Part shown: one piece after another, positions 456 through 10,318 of the stretch
How the letters are laid out: each line of letters opens with the position of its first letter
Position numbering within the stretch: position 1 is the stretch's first letter
Origin: Gemmatimonadota bacterium
GTDB lineage: Bacteria > Gemmatimonadota > Gemmatimonadetes > Longimicrobiales > Gaopeijiaceae
NCBI GenBank assembly: GCA_007120305.1
Contig: SKNW01000033.1
Coordinates: forward strand, 1-42,277
DNA length: 42,277 bases
Reading direction: 5' to 3'
Position numbers and translations under genes: made by a program
Notes under the pieces: model-generated
Database searches by the model: none
The model's input: only the letters and a program-made list of their open reading frames with translations
What the model was told of the DNA's origin: nothing

Positions 456-3400
456 ATGCGCTACCCTGATCCGCCCGAGAACCCCCGCCTCCTGGAAGAC
501 GAGACGCTGGAGGGCTGGCGAACCGAGTCCCTCTTCCGCCAGACGCTGGACGCCACCCGTGACGGGGAGCCCTTCGTCTTCTACGAGGGGCCGCCCACGG
601 CCAATGGGCGTCCGGGGCTTCATCACCTGATCTCCCGGACGATCAAGGACCTGGTCTGCCGGCATCGGACCATGCAGGGGCGGAGCGTGACCCGCATCGC
701 CGGGTGGGACACCCACGGCCTTCCCGTGGAGATCGAGGCGGAGCGAAAGCTGGGGATCTCGGGGAAGCCCGAGATCGAGGCCGTCGGAATCGAACGCTTC
801 AACCAGGTCTGCCGGGACTCGGTCTTCACCTACAAGGAGGAGTGGGAGCGGTTCTCGGAGCGGATCGGCTACTGGCTGGACTATTCCCGCCCCTACGTGA
901 CCTACCACACCTCCTACATCGAGTCGGTGTGGGCCATTCTGAAGACGCTGGCGGAGAAGGGGCTCCTGTACCGCGGGCACAAGTCGGTTCCCTACTGCCC
1001 CCGGTGCGGCACGGCACTCTCCTCCCACGAGGTGGCCCAGGGGTATGACGACGTCGAGGACCCGTCCCTCCACTTCCTCTGCCACTGGCAGGGCGAGGAT
1101 GGGGGCTCCGACGCCGAGGGGCGGAGCTTCCTGGTCTGGACCACCACCCCCTGGACCGTCCCGGCCAATGCGGCGCTGGCCGTGGCGCCGGATCTGACCT
1201 ATGCCCAGGTGCCCTGGACGGCCCCTGATGGCACGGAGCGCCAGCTGGTCCTGGCGGAGGCCCGGGTGGAGGCCATCTTCGGCGAGGGGGCCACGGCCCG
1301 GATCACCCGACGCTACACCGGTGAGGAACTGCTGGGGCAGCGCTACCTGCGCCCGCTGGAGGTGGTGACGCTGGACGATGTGCCTCCGGAGGAGAAAGCG
1401 GTCGGATGGCGGGTGGTGGACGAGGCCTTCGTGTCGGCGGATGACGGGACAGGGATCGTCCACATGGCGCCGGCCTTCGGCGCGGACGACTACGCATCCG
1501 GTCAGCGCCACGGCTTCCCCATGCTCCGTCCCATCGACGACGCCGGGTGCTTCCGGGCGGAGATCCCGGGGGTGGGTGGACGCTTCGTCAAGGAGGCGGA
1601 CCCCCTGCTGGTGGAGGCGCTCCGGGAGGCCGGTACTCTTTTCCGGATCGAGGCCGAAGTCCACAGTTATCCGCACTGCTGGCGCTGCTCCTCTCCCCTC
1701 ATCTACATGGCCCGGGATTCGTGGTTTGCCGCCACCTCGTCCCTCAAGGACCGGATGCTGGAGCACAACCGGGAGGTTGCCTGGCACCCACCGGAGGTGG
1801 GAGAAGGCCGCTTCGGCGAGTGGCTGGCCAACAACGTGGACTGGGCCCTTTCCCGTGACCGGTTCTGGGGGACGCCGCTCCCGGTCTGGGTGAATGATGC
1901 GGACCCCTCGGAGGTCGTCTGGATCGGCTCCCTGGCCGAGCTTGACGCCAGGGTCCGGGAGGCGGGAGGTGCCGGGCTTCCCGACGACTTCGACCCGCAC
2001 CGTCCCTGGATCGACGACATCACCTGGCCTGCATCCGATGGGACCGGGACGATGCGCAGGGTGCCGCAGGTCCTGGACGTCTGGTTCGACTCGGGCGCCA
2101 TGCCCTACGCCCAGTGGCACTGGCCCCACGAAAACGAGGAGGCCTTCCGGGCTCACTTCCCGGCCGACTTCATCTGCGAGGGGCTGGACCAGACCCGGGG
2201 GTGGTTCTACTCGCTCATGGCGATTTCCACCATGCTGGACCTTGGCCCGGCCTACCGGAACGTCATGGTCAACGGGCTGATCCTGGATGCCAACGGGCAG
2301 AAGATGTCCAAGTCCAAGGGGAACACGGTGGATCCCTGGGAGGCCATCGGGGAGTTCGGGTCCGATGCGCTCCGGTGGTACCTGGTCACCGTGTCGAACC
2401 CCTGGGTAGCCAAGCGGTACGATCCGGAAGGCGTGCGCGAGGCGGCACGAAAGTACTTCGACACCCTCTTCAACACCTACCGATTCTTCGCCATGTACGC
2501 CCGGGTCGAGGGATGGACCCCGTCGGCCGGGCTGGGAGGAGAGGGAGAGGATCCGTCTCCGGCGGAGCGGAGCGTGCTTGATCGCTGGCTGCTTTCCCGC
2601 CTGAACCGGACCGTGGCCGAGGTCGGGGAGGACCTGGACGGCTATCAGCTTACCCGGGCCTACCGGCGTGTCACCGACTTCCTGAACGAGGACCTGTCCA
2701 ACTGGTACGTGCGCCGGTCCCGGGCCCGGTTCTGGGGAAAGGCGGAGGCTGGCGATACACGGGCGGCGTTCCGCACGCTCTGGGAGGCCCTCGTCACCGT
2801 CACCCGACTCACGGCGCCGGTGGTGCCCTTCTCGTCGGACTGGCTTCATCGGGCCCTCCACGAGGGTCGTGACCCGGTGCACCTGGCCGCCTTCCCCGAG
2901 ACGGACGAGGGACGGATCGAGGACGCGCTGGAGGAGGAGATGGAGGCCGTGCGGGCCCTGGTCTCCCTGGGGCGGGCCGCCCGCGAAGAGGTCCGGATAC
3001 GGGTGCGCCAGCCCCTAGCATCGCTCCATGCGGTGGTCCCTGGACGCCGCCCCCGGGGGGAGGTCCTGGAGGTCCTGAAGGACGAGCTGAACGTGAAGGA
3101 GGTCCGGTTCCTGGACTCGGCCGAGGGTCTGGTCACGCTGTCGGCCCGGCCGAACTTCCGGGTCCTCGGTCCCCGATTCCAGGCCCGGAGCCAGGTGGCA
3201 GCGGCTGCGCTCCGAGGCCTGGACCAGGAAGCGCTTCGGGCCTTCCGCCGAGGGGAGCCCGTCGCCATCGACGTCGAAGGCGAGGCCGTTTCCGTGGAGC
3301 CTGACTGGCTCGAGGTGGTGGACGCCGCCGCCGGGGACCTGGTGGTGAAGGCCGAGAACGGCTTCGTGGCGGCGCTCGATCCCGTGCTCACGGACGACCT

Positions 3401-3674
3401 GCGGGTAGAAGGGATGGCCCGGGAGCTGGTGAACCGGATCCAGCGCCTGCGGAAGGATGCGGGGCTCGAGATCACCGATCGCATCCTTCTGGCGGTGGAT
3501 GGCCCGGAGGTGGTGGCACGGGCGGTTGCGGCCTGGGGTACATTCATTGCAGGAGAAACGCTGGCGGTGGAACTTGACGTCGGACGGGAGGCCGTGGACG
3601 CCCGGGCCTCTCTCCTGGAGGATGACGTGGACGGATCTGCCGTGCGCGTCGCGCTCAGCCGGGTCGGCGACTGA
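456..3674 (+). CDS. ileS: Isoleucyl-tRNA synthetase, type 2 (IleRS2) with GLHH signature
   Basis: Class I synthetase charging tRNA-Ile in the cytoplasm; 1072 aa, a normal length. The catalytic Rossmann domain has the first signature motif as G54-L-H-H57 instead of the usual HxGH, and the second as K616-M-S-K-S620. The CP1 editing domain begins near the W228-TTTPWT segment and holds the GTGIVHMAPAFG block that clears mischarged valine. The anticodon-binding helical domain follows the KMSKS loop, then a C-terminal domain of the kind seen in eukaryote-like type 2 enzymes; these are known for mupirocin tolerance. ATG 456 is the only sensible start because conserved N-terminal sequence begins within 20 residues, although no clear Shine-Dalgarno precedes it. 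The next gene starts 57 nt downstream. lspA, often next to ileS, is absent here. Confidence 0.97.
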   Translation: MRYPDPPENPRLLEDETLEGWRTESLFRQTLDATRDGEPFVFYEGPPTANGRPGLHHLISRTIKDLVCRHRTMQGRSVTRIAGWDTHGLPVEIEAERKLGISGKPEIEAVGIERFNQVCRDSVFTYKEEWERFSERIGYWLDYSRPYVTYHTSYIESVWAILKTLAEKGLLYRGHKSVPYCPRCGTALSSHEVAQGYDDVEDPSLHFLCHWQGEDGGSDAEGRSFLVWTTTPWTVPANAALAVAPDLTYAQVPWTAPDGTERQLVLAEARVEAIFGEGATARITRRYTGEELLGQRYLRPLEVVTLDDVPPEEKAVGWRVVDEAFVSADDGTGIVHMAPAFGADDYASGQRHGFPMLRPIDDAGCFRAEIPGVGGRFVKEADPLLVEALREAGTLFRIEAEVHSYPHCWRCSSPLIYMARDSWFAATSSLKDRMLEHNREVAWHPPEVGEGRFGEWLANNVDWALSRDRFWGTPLPVWVNDADPSEVVWIGSLAELDARVREAGGAGLPDDFDPHRPWIDDITWPASDGTGTMRRVPQVLDVWFDSGAMPYAQWHWPHENEEAFRAHFPADFICEGLDQTRGWFYSLMAISTMLDLGPAYRNVMVNGLILDANGQKMSKSKGNTVDPWEAIGEFGSDALRWYLVTVSNPWVAKRYDPEGVREAARKYFDTLFNTYRFFAMYARVEGWTPSAGLGGEGEDPSPAERSVLDRWLLSRLNRTVAEVGEDLDGYQLTRAYRRVTDFLNEDLSNWYVRRSRARFWGKAEAGDTRAAFRTLWEALVTVTRLTAPVVPFSSDWLHRALHEGRDPVHLAAFPETDEGRIEDALEEEMEAVRALVSLGRAAREEVRIRVRQPLASLHAVVPGRRPRGEVLEVLKDELNVKEVRFLDSAEGLVTLSARPNFRVLGPRFQARSQVAAAALRGLDQEALRAFRRGEPVAIDVEGEAVSVEPDWLEVVDAAAGDLVVKAENGFVAALDPVLTDDLRVEGMARELVNRIQRLRKDAGLEITDRILLAVDGPEVVARAVAAWGTFIAGETLAVELDVGREAVDARASLLEDDVDGSAVRVALSRVGD

Positions 3675-3731
3675 GGTTTCGCCGATCCACCGTGACGATC
3701 CGCCGTGAGGATCCACCCCGAGGGGAGACGA

Positions 3732-4757
3732 ATGCAGGAAGGGACGCTGGAACGACACGAGCTGGTGGTGGGTCCCGAGGGGGAAGGGGAGCGACTGGAC
3801 CGGTGGCTTTCGGAGACGCTGGACCTGTCGCGCACCCGGGTGGCCGCCCTGGTGGCGGAAGGCCGCGTGCGCTGGAACGAGGGCGTGCCGCGGAAGGCCG
3901 AGCCGCTGGCGGCCGGGGACCGGATCGAGGTCACCCTTCCCGAACCACAGGTTCCCCGAGCCGAGCCGGAGGATCTCCCGCTGGAGGTGGTCTTCCAGGA
4001 TGCCCATCTCCTGGTGGTGAACAAACCTGCCGGGATGGTGGTGCACCCGGCCCCGGGAAACCTGACGGGTACCCTGGTCAACGCCCTCCTCTTCCACGTC
4101 ACCGACCTGTCCGGGATCGGGGGCGAACTGCGGCCCGGCATCGTCCACCGGCTGGACCAGGACACCTCCGGCCTTCTGGTGGTGGCCAAGCACGACCAGG
4201 CCCACCGGGTCCTTTCCGCCGCCCTCAAGCAGCGCGAGATCCGGCGCCTCTACCGTGCCGCCACCTGGGGGCACCTGGAGGGAACGCCTCTGCGCATCGA
4301 TCACCCCATTGGACGGGACCCGTCCAATCGGAAGCGGATGGCCGTGGTCTCCGACGGGCGGCCGGCGGTGAGCCACGTCCGGGTCCGGGAGCGCTGGCGG
4401 GCCGCCGAGCTGGTGGACGTGGCGCTGGAGACGGGTCGGACCCACCAGATCCGGGTGCATCTCAGTCACCTTGGGCACCCGGTGGTGGGCGATGCCCTCT
4501 ACGGCGCCGGGTGGGAGCGGGGAATGAGTGGCGTGGCCCAGGGCTGGGCAGGGCAGCTGGCCCGCCGTGTTCCCCGCCAGTTCCTCCATGCTCGCCGGCT
4601 CCAGTTTCGCCATCCGGTCTCGGGCGACGTGCTGACCTTCGAGTCCGACCTCCCGCCCGATCTGGCGGCGGTCGTGAGCTGGGTCCACGACCAGGAGCGC
4701 CAGGCGCACCCGGAGCACCAGGAGCGAGGAGAGGAGCTCAGGGAGCCGGGGCGGTGA
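3732..4757 (+). CDS. rluD: RluA/RluD-family large-subunit rRNA pseudouridine synthase
   Basis: Isomerises uridine to pseudouridine in rRNA (helix 69 of 23S if truly RluD). An S4 RNA-binding domain lies at about residues 15-70 (ERLDRWLSETLDLSRTRV), followed by the catalytic domain with H139-R-L-D142, where D142 is the nucleophile, and the GRTHQIRVHL segment near the C-terminus. About 341 aa, usual for the family. The ATG at 3732 is preferred over an in-frame GTG at 3705 because AGGGGAG at 3721-3727 sits four nucleotides before it. The stop overlaps the GTG of the next gene. RluA, RluC and RluD cannot be told apart with certainty by eye; RluD is favoured by the S4 domain and the ileS neighbourhood. 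Confidence 0.92.
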   Translation: MQEGTLERHELVVGPEGEGERLDRWLSETLDLSRTRVAALVAEGRVRWNEGVPRKAEPLAAGDRIEVTLPEPQVPRAEPEDLPLEVVFQDAHLLVVNKPAGMVVHPAPGNLTGTLVNALLFHVTDLSGIGGELRPGIVHRLDQDTSGLLVVAKHDQAHRVLSAALKQREIRRLYRAATWGHLEGTPLRIDHPIGRDPSNRKRMAVVSDGRPAVSHVRVRERWRAAELVDVALETGRTHQIRVHLSHLGHPVVGDALYGAGWERGMSGVAQGWAGQLARRVPRQFLHARRLQFRHPVSGDVLTFESDLPPDLAAVVSWVHDQERQAHPEHQERGEELREPGR

Positions 4758-5185
4758 GAAAGGCGGCCACCCCGGGGCTGCTGGATCCCTTCGTGGCGCT
4801 CTCCCCTGTTCGCGAGGCGCTCCTCGTGGATCTCTCGGGGCGGGTCGTGGATCGCATCGGGTTCGCCGACCGCTCCGCGCGGATCCAGGCCGCCTCGCTG
4901 GTGGCGGGGCTCCACGCTTCCGGAGCCCGCCTCTCGGAGGCGGCCGGTAACCCGGGGCCGGCGCTTCTCCGGATCCGGGCCGGTGGGAGCCAGGTGCTTC
5001 TTCTCAGGGTTCCGCCACCGGCGATTCACGTCCTCCTCCTTCACCTGAACGGCGGGGACGGTGCGGAGGAAGCGTGGGAGGATGACCTCCCTGGACTTCT
5101 TCGCGCCCTGGCACCCCGGATTCCCGGCGGGCCCATCGTCCTGGAGGCCGAGCGCTTCGAGGCATCGCTGGAGTCGGACCGATGA
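4754..5185 (+). CDS. Roadblock/LC7-like small protein
   Basis: 143 aa, starting at a GTG that overlaps the previous stop (GTGA), with GGGAG eight nucleotides upstream. Residues about 17-90 read like a roadblock/LC7 (MglB-type) domain: LLVDLSGRVVDRIGF, a helix with LVAGLHASGARLSEAAG, then a strand IRAGGSQVLLLRVPP and a hydrophobic strand. Known roadblock proteins dimerise and act on small Ras-like GTPases or serve as scaffolds in motility and polarity. No GTPase gene is next to it. The C-terminal 50 residues are acidic then hydrophobic and match nothing known to me. The call rests on the pattern of strands and helices only. It overlaps the downstream DnaA-like gene by four bases, so the two are probably made together. 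Confidence 0.6.
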   Translation: MRKAATPGLLDPFVALSPVREALLVDLSGRVVDRIGFADRSARIQAASLVAGLHASGARLSEAAGNPGPALLRIRAGGSQVLLLRVPPPAIHVLLLHLNGGDGAEEAWEDDLPGLLRALAPRIPGGPIVLEAERFEASLESDR

Positions 5186-7116
5186 TCGGGCGGCGCGGTT
5201 TGAGCGGAGGGGCCGTGGTGGAGTTCGATCCCCGCCTGACCTTCGAGACGTTCGTGGTGGGCCCGGCCAACCGCCTGGCCTCGGCCGCTGCGCGCAGGGC
5301 GGCGGAGTCGCCGGGAGCGAGCTACAATCCCCTTTTCCTCTACTCGGCGTCAGGGCTCGGCAAGTCGCACATCCTGAATGCCATTGCCCATCACGCGGTT
5401 CGCACCAGCGCCTCCCGGGTGGTGGAGTACGAGACGCTGGAGGGGTATCTGGACCACCTTGCGGAGGCGCTGGAAGCGGGGGGAGGCGGCGCCGCCCTGG
5501 ATCGTTACGCCCAGGCCGAGATCCTGCTCCTGGACGACGTCCAGTTTCTGACGGGTCAGGCGCAGGCCCAGGAGATGCTCCTGAGGATGCTGGACACGCT
5601 GACCGGACGGGGCGCCCAGGTCGTCCTGGCTTCGGACCGGCCTCCGGCGGAGATCAACGGGCTTGACGCCCGGCTCCTTTCCCGGTTCTCCGGGGGGCTC
5701 ATCGTGGACATCGGCCTTCCCGACTACGAGACCCGGGTCGCCATCATGCGTCGGAAGGTGGAAGAGCGGAGGGCCCGTCTTGCCGAGGGCGTGGCCGAGG
5801 CGCTGGCCCGGTTTCCCTTCCAGAACGTGCGGGAGCTCCAGGGCGCCCTGAACCGACTCCTGGCGATCCAGGAGCTGGAGGAACGCCTGGTCCGGGTGGC
5901 CGATCTGGGGGCCGTGCTGGGGCCCCAGTTTGCCGTGGATGTCGACCGTGGAGAGGGGGGTGGGGATGCATCCCGGGTGGGGGCGCAGACGGACGAGGCG
6001 GCCAACGTGGAGCCGGAGTGGAGGGTCGCCTTTGTCCGGGTCATCGAGACCGTGGAGTCGGCCGGGTACTCGGCCGACCGGCTCCGACGCCCGCTTGAGG
6101 ACCGGTGGAACGAACCTGCGGACTGGCAGGAGATCCTGAAGGCCTTCCGGCGGGACCTGGATCGGCTCCGGGAGATCCGGGCCCAGCTTCAGGACCTCCC
6201 GGCGCCCTGGCCCTCGGATGCGGACGTCATCCTCCGTGACCCCGACCTCCTGGACGAGGCGGAGCGCCTCCTGGGTCTGGCCGTCGAGCGGTCCCGGTCC
6301 TTTCCTGACATCCCCTCGGGGCCCAAGCTGGACGAATCGGGCACACGCTTTCCGGCCCTCGCCCGGCGGGCCGCCGAGCGGGCGATGACATCGGAGGTTC
6401 CGGAGTACAACCCCCTCTTCGTGCATGCCTCCGATCCGGTTCGGACCCGGGAATTCCTCGAGGCCTGTGGCCGGACCTACCGGGCCCTGGACCCGAAGGC
6501 ACGGGTCGGGCTCCTGTCGGTGCCCGAGTTCAGCGAGGAGTTCATTGCCGCGCTTTCCGCCGGTGTGGCGGGGGCGTGGAGGGAACGGTGGTGGTCCGTG
6601 GATCTCCTCCTCCTCCACGAGGCGGAGGCGCTGGGCAGGACCGAGCGGGCCCAGGAGGAATTCTTCCACCTCTTCGAGGCGTTGAAGCGGCGGGGATCCC
6701 GGATTTTCGTGGCGGCCGACCGACCGGCGTCGACGCTGGAGGGGATCGATGACCGCCTTCGTTCCCGGTTCCAGGGCGGCCTGGTCCTGGACCTTGGCAT
6801 GGAGCCGGGAGCCCGGGCCGGAGGCGGGAGCGGAGATTGGCCCGCCTCGCCGAGGCACCTCCCGGCCGTGCAGGGCCGGGGCAAGCAGGATCCGGCCGCA
6901 CCTGCGCCCACGCCCACCGCGACGGGGCCCGCCACGCCCGAATCCAGGTCGGTGCTCGATCCTTCGGCAGACCTCGAGCGCGATCCCGCCCTCGGGGCGC
7001 CGGTAACGACCCCGGTAGCAGGTGCAGAGGAGCCGCCAGCCTGGACGCCTCCCCCGGACCGCGTCGTCTGGCGGTGGCCGCGGATCGAGGACCGGATCGT
7101 GGAGGACGCATCATGA
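5182..7116 (+). CDS. Tandem DnaA-like AAA+ protein; second module lacks the P-loop
   Basis: 644 aa. Residues 15-240 match the DnaA ATPase domain: DPRLTFETFVVGPANRLA, Walker A SASGLGKS (55-62), Walker B ILLLDD (114-119), a sensor-1-like VVLASDRPP and the box VII-like LLSRFSGGL. A helical linker follows (about 260-380). Residues 392-541 repeat the same architecture: FPALARRAAER, YNPLFVHASDPVRT where the P-loop should be (409-422), LLLLHE (475-480) in place of Walker B, IFVAADRP and DRLRSRFQGGL. So module 2 is probably a pseudo-ATPase. The last 100 residues are Pro/Ala-rich. There is no DnaA domain IV helix-turn-helix, so it is not the replication initiator; Hda is similar but has a single module. 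ATG 5182 overlaps the upstream stop, with GGAG eight nucleotides before it; GTG 5218 is a possible shorter start. Function unknown; the operon suggests work with the roadblock and DUF4388 proteins. Confidence 0.85.
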   Translation: MIGRRGLSGGAVVEFDPRLTFETFVVGPANRLASAAARRAAESPGASYNPLFLYSASGLGKSHILNAIAHHAVRTSASRVVEYETLEGYLDHLAEALEAGGGGAALDRYAQAEILLLDDVQFLTGQAQAQEMLLRMLDTLTGRGAQVVLASDRPPAEINGLDARLLSRFSGGLIVDIGLPDYETRVAIMRRKVEERRARLAEGVAEALARFPFQNVRELQGALNRLLAIQELEERLVRVADLGAVLGPQFAVDVDRGEGGGDASRVGAQTDEAANVEPEWRVAFVRVIETVESAGYSADRLRRPLEDRWNEPADWQEILKAFRRDLDRLREIRAQLQDLPAPWPSDADVILRDPDLLDEAERLLGLAVERSRSFPDIPSGPKLDESGTRFPALARRAAERAMTSEVPEYNPLFVHASDPVRTREFLEACGRTYRALDPKARVGLLSVPEFSEEFIAALSAGVAGAWRERWWSVDLLLLHEAEALGRTERAQEEFFHLFEALKRRGSRIFVAADRPASTLEGIDDRLRSRFQGGLVLDLGMEPGARAGGGSGDWPASPRHLPAVQGRGKQDPAAPAPTPTATGPATPESRSVLDPSADLERDPALGAPVTTPVAGAEEPPAWTPPPDRVVWRWPRIEDRIVEDAS

Positions 7117-7152
7117 ACGCCGGGCGCGCACAACCCGGGGGGGAGGTGATCC

Positions 7153-8862
7153 ATGGCCATTGAGGGACAGCTTTCCGACGTCGGCCTTGCCGACATCATG
7201 CAGCTCCTGGCCGTGGGGCGGAAAACCGGGTGCCTCACCGTGACAGACCGGTCCAGCTTCGGCTACATCTACATGGAGGACGGCCGGGTGATCTACGCCA
7301 ACGTCCTCAACCGCCCGGACCGACTCGGCGAACTCCTCGTGCGAAACCAGGTCATCGATCGGAACGAGCTCTCCCGGGCCATGGAGGAGCAGGCCCGACA
7401 GCCGGGACTCCGCCTGGGCCGGATCCTCGTGAGTCGGGGAACCATCACCGAGGAGGACCTCTCTCGTTTCATCACGGTGCAGGTCGAGGAGGCCGTGTAC
7501 CATCTCTTTGCCTGGGAGCGGGGAGCCTTCCACTTCGAGCCGGATTCCCATCCCGACGATACGACCGGACCCCACGTGTCGATCAGCGCCGAGAGCCTCC
7601 TTCTGGAAGGAGCTCGACGCGTCGACGAATGGTCCATGATCGAGAAGAAGATCCCGTCGATGGACCTGGTCTTCGCCAGGGAGGAGCGGACCGGAACGAA
7701 CGAGAATCGGACCGAAACCGGAAATGGAAAGGCGGAGGAAGGGGAGCCAGGGGGTAGGGAGTCCTCCCCCGGGAAGGGCGCGGAGGAGGCCGAGCTCACC
7801 CCGGAGCAAGAGCGGCTGCTGGAGCTCGTGGATGGGCATCGTACGGTCCGTGATCTCGTGGACGAATCGGGGCTCGTGGAGTTCGACGTGGCCAAGTCCC
7901 TCTTCGGGCTCCTCCAGGCCGGCTTCATCGTTTCCGTGGGCCGACGCGAGGACGCGTCGCCGGATGCCGCCGAGGCCGAGGGGCTCCCCCAGAAGCTCTC
8001 GGTGGGGGGCGCCTATTACCGCGCGGGGATGTTCGAGGATGCGGAGCGAGAATACCGGGCGGCGCTGGCCATCGTGAACGACGAGCCTACGGCCCGCGCC
8101 CGCCTGGCCCTGATCTGCCTGAGGTCGGAGCGCTTCGAGGAGGCCCTCGCGCACTACCAGGCGATGCCCGACTCCGTCCGTGAGAGCCCGTCGGGGGTCC
8201 GGAATCGCGCCCTTGCATTGGAGATGCTCGGGCGGAACGAGGAGGCAGTGGACCTCCTCGAGGGATTGGCTGAACGTGCGCCTTCCCCTCCCGAACTTCT
8301 GCTGGCCCGGGCCATTCCTCTCCTCAAGGTGGGCCGGCCCCGCGCCGCCTGGGACCTCCTTCGACGATTCCGGAGTGCGTGGAGCGGGGGAGATCCGCCT
8401 CCCCTCTACTACGCCTGGGCGATCCTGGCTGCCGCGGCCAGTGGAAACCCGGATGCGGCGCTCCAGGTGGGGCGGGAAGGTGTGGCCGCGCATCCCACCG
8501 AGGGGGCGATCCTCGTGAACCTGGGGGTGGTTCTGGAGGCCCGGGAGCAGGGCGCCGCGGCCGAGGCCCTCTACCTGCGCGCTGCCTCTTCGTCTCCCGT
8601 ACCTCCGCAGGCGCACAAGAACCTGGGCGACGTGGCCTATCGGCGGGGAGACCAGGCGGGAGCCAGGGCCCACTACGAGCGGGCGGTGCGGCTGGATCCG
8701 GACCTCGGCGACGACGTATACCTGAAACTCGGAAACCTCTTTCACCGGGATGGGGACCGGGACCTGGCTCTTCAGCACTGGCGCCGGGCCCTGGAACTGA
8801 ACCCCCGCAACGAAGTGGTCCGCACGAACCTGCAGCTGGCGGCCTCCTCGGCCCCGCGATGA
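7153..8862 (+). CDS. DUF4388 (PatA-like N-terminal) plus TPR protein
   Basis: 569 aa, preceded by GGGAGGTG (7141-7148) a few bases before the ATG. Residues 1-170 match DUF4388: GQLSDVGLADIMQLLAVGRKTGCLTV, GYIYMEDGRVIYA, LGELLVRNQVI and GRILVSRGTITEEDL, then FAWERGAFHFEP. A charged Glu/Gly-rich linker (about 180-212) leads to a winged-helix-like piece (LTPEQERLLELVDGHRTVRDLVDESGLVEFDVAKSLFGLLQAGFI), and about seven TPR units fill residues 265-569. DUF4388 proteins occur beside roadblock and MglA-type proteins in deltaproteobacteria and related phyla and are thought to be signalling scaffolds. No signal peptide, so it is cytoplasmic. The last codon overlaps the start of the peptidase gene. Confidence 0.88.
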   Translation: MAIEGQLSDVGLADIMQLLAVGRKTGCLTVTDRSSFGYIYMEDGRVIYANVLNRPDRLGELLVRNQVIDRNELSRAMEEQARQPGLRLGRILVSRGTITEEDLSRFITVQVEEAVYHLFAWERGAFHFEPDSHPDDTTGPHVSISAESLLLEGARRVDEWSMIEKKIPSMDLVFAREERTGTNENRTETGNGKAEEGEPGGRESSPGKGAEEAELTPEQERLLELVDGHRTVRDLVDESGLVEFDVAKSLFGLLQAGFIVSVGRREDASPDAAEAEGLPQKLSVGGAYYRAGMFEDAEREYRAALAIVNDEPTARARLALICLRSERFEEALAHYQAMPDSVRESPSGVRNRALALEMLGRNEEAVDLLEGLAERAPSPPELLLARAIPLLKVGRPRAAWDLLRRFRSAWSGGDPPPLYYAWAILAAAASGNPDAALQVGREGVAAHPTEGAILVNLGVVLEAREQGAAAEALYLRAASSSPVPPQAHKNLGDVAYRRGDQAGARAHYERAVRLDPDLGDDVYLKLGNLFHRDGDRDLALQHWRRALELNPRNEVVRTNLQLAASSAPR

Positions 8863-9917
8863 CCGGCCCGTCCGGCCCATCGATCCGGCCGTCGTTCCCA
8901 TCGGCCTCCTGGCGACACCAGCCCTGGGGGTGGGGACGGATCCTGTTCGCCTTCTTCACGGTCGGCGCCCTCCTCATGGGTGCGGGAGGGTTCGCGGGAC
9001 CAGGTGCGGGCGCTGCGGGCCCGGCCGTTTCGGACCCGGAGCCACGGATCCTGGTCCCCGAGAGCCCGGTCCTGGCCGAGCGGGTCCAGATCCTTTACTG
9101 GGAAGGGTCGGAAGGGCGGGCTGAGCGAACGGCCCGCGTGCTGGACCGCCACGCCATTCTCCCCGGCCTCCCGGCGAACCATCCCCTCCGGGCCCAGGTG
9201 GTGCTGGCGCCGGACCTGGCGACGTGGGATGCCTGGACCGGGGGGCAGGTGCCGCACTGGGGCGCCGGCGTGGCCATCCCCTCGCTGGACCGGATCGTCC
9301 TTCCGCTCTTCCGTGCACCCTGGAGCGGAGGGGTCTCGGAGGACCGCACCCTCCGGCACGAGTGGGCCCACCTCGGGCTGCACGGCTACCTGGAGGGACT
9401 CCGGATCCCCCGGTGGTTCGACGAGGGGTATGCTCAGTGGGCGTCCGGCGGATGGGACACCTCCGCCGCCTGGAAGCTCCGCGCGGCGCTGGCCCGTGGA
9501 ACAGCCCCTCCCCTGGAAGACCTCACCCTGGTCTGGCCCCGGGAGCGGGGCGAGGCGGAGCTGGCCTATCTCCTCTCCGCCAGCGCGGTCAGCTTCCTCG
9601 TGCAGGAGAGCGGCGCCCGGGGGATGGAGGTCTTCCTCGGGCGGTGGAGGGAGAGCGGCGATTTCGAGGGGGCCCTGCGCCAGACCTTCGGGCTCACCTC
9701 GGGACAGTTCCAGCGCCGCTGGGTGGAGCATGTACGGCGCCGTTACGGGTGGTTCATCTTCCTCTCACAGACGGCCTTCGTGTGGGGGATCCTGGGTGTC
9801 GTGCTCCTGATCCTCTTCGGGATCCGCCGCCGCCGCGACCGGGAGCGCATGGAGCGCCTTCGGAGGGCGGAGGCCATGGGGGAAGGGGGGGAGCGCTGGT
9901 GGACGCCCTTTTCCTGA
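8859..9917 (+). CDS. Membrane-anchored gluzincin (peptidase MA-like) metallopeptidase
   Basis: 352 aa starting at ATG 8859, which overlaps the upstream TGA. The zinc motif is H167-E-W-A-H171 with a downstream E189 in RWFDEGYAQWAS, the layout of peptidase MA-like gluzincins. A hydrophobic segment at about 27-50 (ILFAFFTVGALLMGAGGFAG) is an anchor or signal, and a second at about 298-323 precedes a run of arginines (GIRRRRDRER), so the catalytic part lies outside the cytoplasm with a short basic cytoplasmic tail. Substrate unknown. Overlap with the DUF4388/TPR gene puts it in the same transcript; whether it shares a function is inference. Confidence 0.82.
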   Translation: MTGPSGPSIRPSFPSASWRHQPWGWGRILFAFFTVGALLMGAGGFAGPGAGAAGPAVSDPEPRILVPESPVLAERVQILYWEGSEGRAERTARVLDRHAILPGLPANHPLRAQVVLAPDLATWDAWTGGQVPHWGAGVAIPSLDRIVLPLFRAPWSGGVSEDRTLRHEWAHLGLHGYLEGLRIPRWFDEGYAQWASGGWDTSAAWKLRAALARGTAPPLEDLTLVWPRERGEAELAYLLSASAVSFLVQESGARGMEVFLGRWRESGDFEGALRQTFGLTSGQFQRRWVEHVRRRYGWFIFLSQTAFVWGILGVVLLILFGIRRRRDRERMERLRRAEAMGEGGERWWTPFS

Positions 9918-10039: not shown

Positions 10040-10318
10040 ATGAATAGCACGCGTGAACGTGGGGGGCATGACCCCCGGAAGGAAGAGGCGCCGGAGGGGA
10101 CCCGGGTGCGCCGCCGTAGCCGACGCCCAGCGCCGTCCGGAGGCACCGCCGGCGAGGTGGTCGCCGGACTGACGCCGCTGGGTATCGGGCTGGGTCTGGC
10201 CGGCGTCGTCATCACGATTCTCGGCCTGTGGTTGACGGCCCAGGGAGACATCACGGCAGCTCCCCTCCTTCTGGTCCTTGCCTTCCTGGTTCTATTTCCG
10301 CTGGCGCTCACGCGCTGA
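10040..10318 (+). CDS. Small two-helix membrane protein, function unknown
   Basis: 92 aa. A basic hydrophilic N-terminus (RVRRRSRRPAPSGG) is followed by two hydrophobic segments, about residues 46-67 and 73-90, ending at Thr-Arg. The positive N-terminus predicts both ends inside. There is a loose likeness to DUF3098-type small two-helix proteins, but I do not recognise it with confidence. The gene has its own promoter right at the start codon and ends seven bases before tRNA-Val, so the two are likely cotranscribed. Confidence 0.7.
   Translation: MNSTRERGGHDPRKEEAPEGTRVRRRSRRPAPSGGTAGEVVAGLTPLGIGLGLAGVVITILGLWLTAQGDITAAPLLLVLAFLVLFPLALTR

Follow-up and report, generated by a model that had tools for sequence, protein, structure and literature searches.

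The window analysed here is a stretch of 42,277 nucleotides from a Gemmatimonadota bacterium, the source assembly of which amounts to 2.03 Mb in 103 contigs and is 75.6% complete. On its forward strand lies a tight cluster of genes in which an RluD-type pseudouridine synthase is followed by a roadblock protein, an AAA+ protein with two DnaA-like domains, a protein combining a DUF4388 (PATAN) domain with TPRs, and a zinc peptidase. Families are referred to throughout by the labels of the genome search (f1, f2 and so on), and the window falls in f1. The genes of the locus and its synteny anchors are as follows.

456..3674, + strand: ileS (ORF), left synteny anchor at family and order level
3705..4757, + strand: RluD-type pseudouridine synthase (PF00849, E 9.4e-31), first gene of the tight cluster
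4754..5185, + strand: roadblock/LC7 gene (ORF with GTG start; PF03259)
5182..7116, + strand: tandem DnaA-like AAA+ gene, 644 aa (Bac_DnaA domain matches, motifs, fold)
7140..7147, + strand: ribosome-binding site GGGGAGGT of the DUF4388 gene, before its ATG (sequence)
7153..8862, + strand: DUF4388 (PATAN)/TPR gene (PF14332, E 1.8e-39, and TPRs), companion of the AAA+ gene
8859..9917, + strand: Peptidase_MA_2 zinc peptidase gene (PF13485, E 1.6e-11), right border
10040..10318, + strand: gene for a small predicted membrane protein, right synteny anchor

The rluD/roadblock, roadblock/AAA+ and DUF4388/peptidase junctions are all 4-bp overlaps, and the AAA+ and DUF4388 genes are separated by a 36-bp gap that carries the ribosome site. 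The four reading frames from roadblock to peptidase, their overlaps and their domains were confirmed where the initial annotation had placed them, by the open reading frames and a domain search, and its suggestion that the genes are coexpressed is supported by the tight spacing, the overlaps and the GGGGAGGT site. The operon takes in rluD too, and ileS, which ends 30 bp before rluD, is probably also part of it. The same borders recur in related genomes. Upstream of rluD, ileS is found in other f1 loci and in two f3 loci. Where the operon has the window's order, rluD forms its left edge, adjoining it in f1, in L062 of f2 and in L080, L081 and L083 of f3; on the other side, the peptidase is followed by the small membrane-protein gene in most f1 loci, several f2 loci and one f3 locus. 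Measured against a same-genus genome, the window genes are under purifying selection (NG86 dN/dS about 0.16-0.28), the roadblock, AAA+ and DUF4388 genes giving values of about 0.16-0.22 in the comparison with G357 and rluD 0.15. Intact genes held by such selection mean that the four-gene arrangement is not a chance observation.

The roadblock protein

The first protein matches Robl_LC7 (PF03259) with an E value of 9.3e-5 and 22.5 bits, just below the 23-bit cut-off. A structure model was built from an alignment of the window protein with 19 orthologues (20 sequences, alignment A1), and this AF2 model (pLDDT 77.6, pTM 0.72) finds as its best PDB match in Foldseek the MglB of Myxococcus xanthus in complex with MglA (E 4e-6), followed by other MglB chains and roadblock proteins. 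As the predicted fold matches MglB, the marginal score is settled and the protein can be taken as a roadblock, as first annotated. A C-terminal FExxL motif is conserved among the orthologues in alignment A1, and an SSLGLV segment is kept in most roadblocks adjacent to MglA and lost in those of f1, which have no MglA neighbour. The window gene is the orthologue of the MglA-adjacent roadblock gene of the sister families. No MglA gene lies beside it; in this genome MglA is encoded on another contig, C60, together with a roadblock gene of its own as an MglA/MglB-like pair. Within f1 the window-type roadblock survives in genera g1 and g11, as well as at a few other loci (L104, L110 and L129), and is absent from most genera.

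The tandem DnaA-like AAA+ protein

Bac_DnaA (PF00308) is matched in two stretches of the second protein, with a total E value of 1.1e-73, and four parts can be delimited.

5227..5919, + strand: AAA1, a complete DnaA domain-III-like ATPase (motifs in alignment A2, Foldseek)
6010..6297, + strand: helical linker, kept whether or not AAA2 is present (alignments)
6358..6804, + strand: AAA2, a second DnaA-like core without lid (alignments, tree)
7042..7113, + strand: C-terminal tail with the motif W-x-P-x-x-(E/D)-(K/R)-VVW-x-WP...(L/I)(V/I)E, kept throughout the class (alignments)

AAA1 carries the Walker A (SASGLGKS), Walker B (LLLDDVQF), sensor 1 (SDRPP), box VII (RF) and sensor 2 (NVREL) motifs, the columns of which vary little or not at all among 31 orthologues (alignment A2), and its model superimposes on domain III of Bacillus subtilis DnaA with an rmsd of 1.5 A and a TM score of 0.94 of the target (Foldseek). 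In AAA2 the Walker A motif is lost and the box VII arginines are invariant among the f1 members in which this domain is readable; most loci outside f1 that have AAA2 retain its P-loop (GKT/GKS), with exceptions that include L060 and L062. The domain search found neither DnaA domain I (PF11638) nor the DNA-binding helix-turn-helix of domain IV (PF08299) in this protein, unlike the genome's own DnaA, which has both, and against the Hda model TIGR03420 it scores 101 bits, below the cut-off of 194.8.

In a tree of 58 domains the AAA2 sequences group together (100/97), as do those of AAA1 (100/98), next to DnaA. As each domain forms its own cluster, the tandem arose early in the class, and AAA2 was lost in f3. 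The single-AAA form of f3 was considered as the ancestral state and rejected, as the AAA2 of other families in the class groups with that of the window's family. The linker (kept in f3) and the tail (EKVVW-x-WP...IEE) persist throughout, and at the f3 locus L083 they are the sole remains of the protein, the ATPase domain itself having gone, which implies that ATP use is not always needed. Window positions 5983-6156 (residues 268-325), in the helical linker, also give a weak Pfam match to DUF2201_N (E 0.0013, under the cut-off).

The DUF4388 (PATAN)/TPR protein

The third protein contains TPRs and matches PF14332 (DUF4388) at 134.9 bits against a cut-off of 25, and within the DUF4388 domain lies one further feature.

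7321..7482, + strand: MshEN-like motif pair (RLGELLV... RLGRILVSRGTITEEDL), putative c-di-GMP-binding (NF053729)

The MshEN-related motif model NF053729 scores 55.7 bits here against a cut-off of 38, and the pair consists of two motifs of the type RLGxxLVxxGxIxxxxLxxALxxQ, the first of which has Q instead of the G. Both are clear in most orthologues and degraded in some (L035, L036, L038 and L039). The pair sits inside the PATAN domain, at the place where PATAN is described with an alpha-helical insertion. It may mark a c-di-GMP site that PATAN proteins have in general, and so opens to test the view that c-di-GMP is bound at the helical insertion. Genes for PATAN proteins have been noted near MglA/MglB (PMC4316618), and binding of PilB by PATAN regulators in Synechocystis is cited in PMC10519157.

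Distribution and the ancestral operon

The distribution of the AAA+ protein was assessed in 117 genomes of the order (84 from f1, 12 from f2 and 21 from f3). The tandem form occurs in 31 of the 84 f1 genomes, in 9/12 from f2 and in 0/21 from f3, where the seven loci inspected have a single-AAA form of roughly 390-400 aa at the same place. A profile search also recovered the tandem form in three further families of the class, f4, f5 and f6, with E values of about 1e-54 to 1e-75 along the full profile, and matches at the level of DnaA alone in families f7-f11; named loci with the gene include Gemmatimonadaceae and Gemmatimonas sp. Outside the phylum, an 80-locus scan returned, among the matches listed, only proteins of canonical DnaA size. 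One genome scored as AAA+-negative, G106, has a contig that ends within the DUF4388 gene, probably an assembly gap.

In the f2, f3 and Gemmatimonadaceae loci, among which are 27 named ones, MglA, the AAA+ gene and the DUF4388/TPR gene directly adjoin one another in this order. Domain checks identified around them CheA, CheC, a TPR protein, a short DUF4388 protein, a TPR/roadblock protein, a roadblock protein, CheR, CheD, CheB and CheW, and the ancestral-type order reads CheW-REC-CheA-CheC-TPR-DUF4388/TPR-TPR/roadblock-roadblock-MglA-AAA+-DUF4388/TPR-CheR-CheD-CheB-CheW-TPR. The whole set spans rluD to the peptidase in L080 (f3). Other loci hold partial versions: most or all of the Che genes are lost and MglA kept in L081 (f3) and L062 (f2), and in L085 the AAA+ and DUF4388/TPR genes are lost and MglA kept. 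The window locus has neither MglA nor Che genes, and most f1 genera are also without the roadblock at this site. CheA was not found in the window's genome, as represented by the 75.6% complete assembly.

Comparison of gene order shows that the four window genes are what remains of an operon found class-wide in Gemmatimonadota, set in the window's order between rluD and the peptidase, and that f1 has lost MglA and the chemosensory genes from this site. A search for the four-gene order among relatives, as the initial annotation had proposed, divides in its outcome: the order itself was found in close relatives only, in some genera of f1, so that a four-gene system fails by the annotation's own test, and a larger ancestral operon containing the AAA+ gene is established. 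The link drawn there to polarity and motility modules of the MglA type is borne out by the position of MglA beside the AAA+ gene in the sister families, and the idea of a DnaA-like ATPase within such a module by the presence of the AAA+ gene inside MglA/Che operons. The further idea that this ATPase stands in for MglA fails, because the sister families have MglA immediately upstream of the AAA+ gene, and the window's family lost it from this locus (this genome keeping MglA on C60), so that the AAA+ protein is no replacement for it. A divergent MglA, about 52% identical to that of f2, occurs at the usual second-MglA site of genus g5 (L088:6816-7394), without the AAA+/DUF4388 pair.

Co-occurrence, fusion and loss

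Orthologues of the DUF4388/TPR protein are found in exactly the same 31 of 84 f1 genomes as the AAA+ protein, and the threshold is reached in 0/53 of the others. All 31 AAA+-positive genomes have MglA, compared with 14 of the 53 AAA+-negative ones, and at least two PilT genes, as counted with a family model, are present in 29/31 and 2/53, respectively; these co-occurrences are phylogenetically non-independent, and Fisher p-values ignore shared ancestry. Contrasts within genera g8, g13 and g24 agree for PilT, those within g14 and g23 being less clear.

The AAA+ and DUF4388/TPR genes are fused into one 1026-aa ORF in G086 (L056 2732-5812, - strand), where the junction reads through without a start codon, although an error in the sequence may account for the missing stop codon. 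In G065 (L151/L196, L196:2619-4572) a deletion joins AAA1 and the linker to the TPR part, removing AAA2, the tail and the PATAN domain. Relics of the start of the AAA+ gene, the end of the TPR gene or both remain between rluD and the peptidase in L193, L194, L195, L198, L199 and L201; none of either gene were found there in L189-L192 and L197. Comparison of these loci indicates that the conserved functional unit is the AAA+ protein with the DUF4388/TPR protein, the roadblock being patchy, and that this pair has been deleted repeatedly in f1, leaving fragments behind.

The peptidase follows a different pattern. It has, by eye, a putative signal and a C-terminal TM helix, and its catalytic signature can be placed precisely.

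9357..9371, + strand: HEWAH zinc-binding motif of the peptidase (sequence)

Both the HExxH motif and the downstream E are present (HEWAH...FDEGYA), and the HExxH...EG pattern was seen in 31 of the 32 orthologues checked. The gene occurs in 29/31 AAA+-positive and 45/53 AAA+-negative f1 genomes (p 0.31, Fisher). The possibility that the peptidase delivers the system's output was considered and rejected, as the gene shows no co-occurrence with the rest; it is an independent neighbour, kept when the AAA+ and DUF4388/TPR pair is lost. In several f1 genomes (L192, L196 and L201) a response-regulator gene, NtrC-like by eye, lies between the peptidase and small membrane-protein genes.

Relation to known systems

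The closest described counterpart is the polarity module of M. xanthus, in which MglA recruits the TPR protein SgmX and type IV pili (T4P) are thereby stimulated (PMC11580455). Like the M. xanthus combination of MglA/MglB, Frz and SgmX, the ancestral operon has MglA, roadblock and TPR proteins and a chemosensory system; the window roadblock folds as MglB, and an association with T4P genes is common to both. The two differ in that no DnaA-like ATPase is described for the M. xanthus module in the literature cited here, and in that the Gemmatimonadota genes form one operon, of which the window copy is without MglA and the Che genes. M. xanthus also has a second roadblock protein beside MglB, MglC (PMC9481161, PMC7949163), which offers no more than an analogy. 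With the cyanobacterial PATAN regulators PatA, PixG, PilG and TaxP2 the window protein shares the DUF4388/PATAN domain, but it differs from them in having TPRs, the internal MshEN-like pair and an AAA+ partner, and in having no receiver domain. AAA1 corresponds by sequence and predicted fold to domain III of DnaA; in contrast to DnaA and Hda, the window AAA+ protein is a tandem without domain I or IV, has an extra helical linker and a conserved C-terminal tail, and has its gene in an MglA operon. The open-licence literature, searched for DUF4388 with MglA, for a DnaA-like AAA+ protein with MglA and type IV pili and for DnaA paralogues with motility, yielded no description of a DnaA paralogue in an MglA module. 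The MglA, roadblock, PATAN, TPR and Che parts are of a known kind, and the regular presence of a DnaA-derived tandem ATPase among them is, as far as the open literature shows, undescribed.

Interpretation

We consider it likely that the locus is the remnant of the class-wide operon and that its AAA+ and PATAN proteins control type IV pilus motility, with more confidence in the evolutionary half of this account than in the biochemical half. In the mechanism that we propose, the PATAN/TPR protein would sense c-di-GMP through its MshEN-like insertion and so control the type IV pilus motor, and the AAA+ protein would dock on it through the C-terminal W-x-WP tail. ATP bound to AAA1 could then promote head-to-tail contacts in the manner of DnaA, leading to assembly of the complex or its localisation at a pole, with AAA2, in which the arginine fingers are kept and the P-loop is lost in f1, serving within the same chain as a partner that does not hydrolyse ATP. 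The roadblock protein might couple the complex to the MglA/MglB encoded at another locus. A more speculative reading, which we hold to be less likely than not, is that duplication early in the class gave rise to a DnaA paralogue that settled as a regular component of an MglA/PATAN/c-di-GMP polarity switch, in which DnaA-type ATP-dependent assembly places or gates type IV pilus motors, the f1 version having lost the adjacent GTPase and the second ATP site.

The alternative that survives best, itself improbable, is that the complex controls some other c-di-GMP and chemosensory output, such as surface sensing, exopolysaccharide or gliding, and not T4P extension or polarity. Neither the MshEN-like motif nor the Che genes are specific to T4P, and the operon is without a pilus gene; set against this are the correlation with extra PilT copies, mixed genera included, and the precedents of PATAN with PilB and of MglA with SgmX and T4P. 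Slightly less probable still is a DnaA regulator (Hda-like) or a replication or cell-cycle factor through which the polarity operon would be linked to the state of replication. That AAA1 is by fold and motifs a complete DnaA domain III, and adjoins DnaA in the domain tree, would fit such a role, but the missing domains I and IV and the low Hda score speak against it, as do the location of the gene in MglA/Che operons and its lack in many f1 genomes, where absence tracks that of MglA and extra PilT. Decay of the f1 locus, with no coherent function left, is very unlikely: the repeated deletions and relics, the loss of the AAA2 P-loop and the patchy roadblock are what it would leave, but AAA1 motifs are invariant and the dN/dS values of the roadblock, AAA+ and DUF4388 genes lie near that of rluD. 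Least credible of all is a distinct four-part system with the DnaA-like ATPase in MglA's place and a membrane peptidase carrying the output, which tight spacing and intact, selected genes favour and which, as a conserved system, is already contradicted by the occurrence of the literal order in some genera of one family only, by MglA next to the AAA+ gene in sister families, lost in f1 and persisting elsewhere in the window's genome, and by a peptidase about equally common without the AAA+ protein.

If control of pilus motility by the AAA+ and PATAN proteins holds true, a replication-initiator ATPase has been recruited to bacterial cell polarity and surface movement, and an ATP-driven element has been added to MglA modules, which are described as GTP-driven. 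The f1 family and its relatives offer a natural experiment, with operons that differ in whether they have MglA, Che genes, a P-loop in AAA2 or the ATPase/PATAN pair as a whole, and since these variants coexist in related genomes, the order in which the parts depend on one another can be tested. The window's own genome also encodes, on contig C2 (L184:1075-3183), a 702-aa PilB/GspE-type ATPase that carries, by eye, a receiver domain of response-regulator type at its C-terminus and may be a pilus or secretion motor controlled by phosphorylation.
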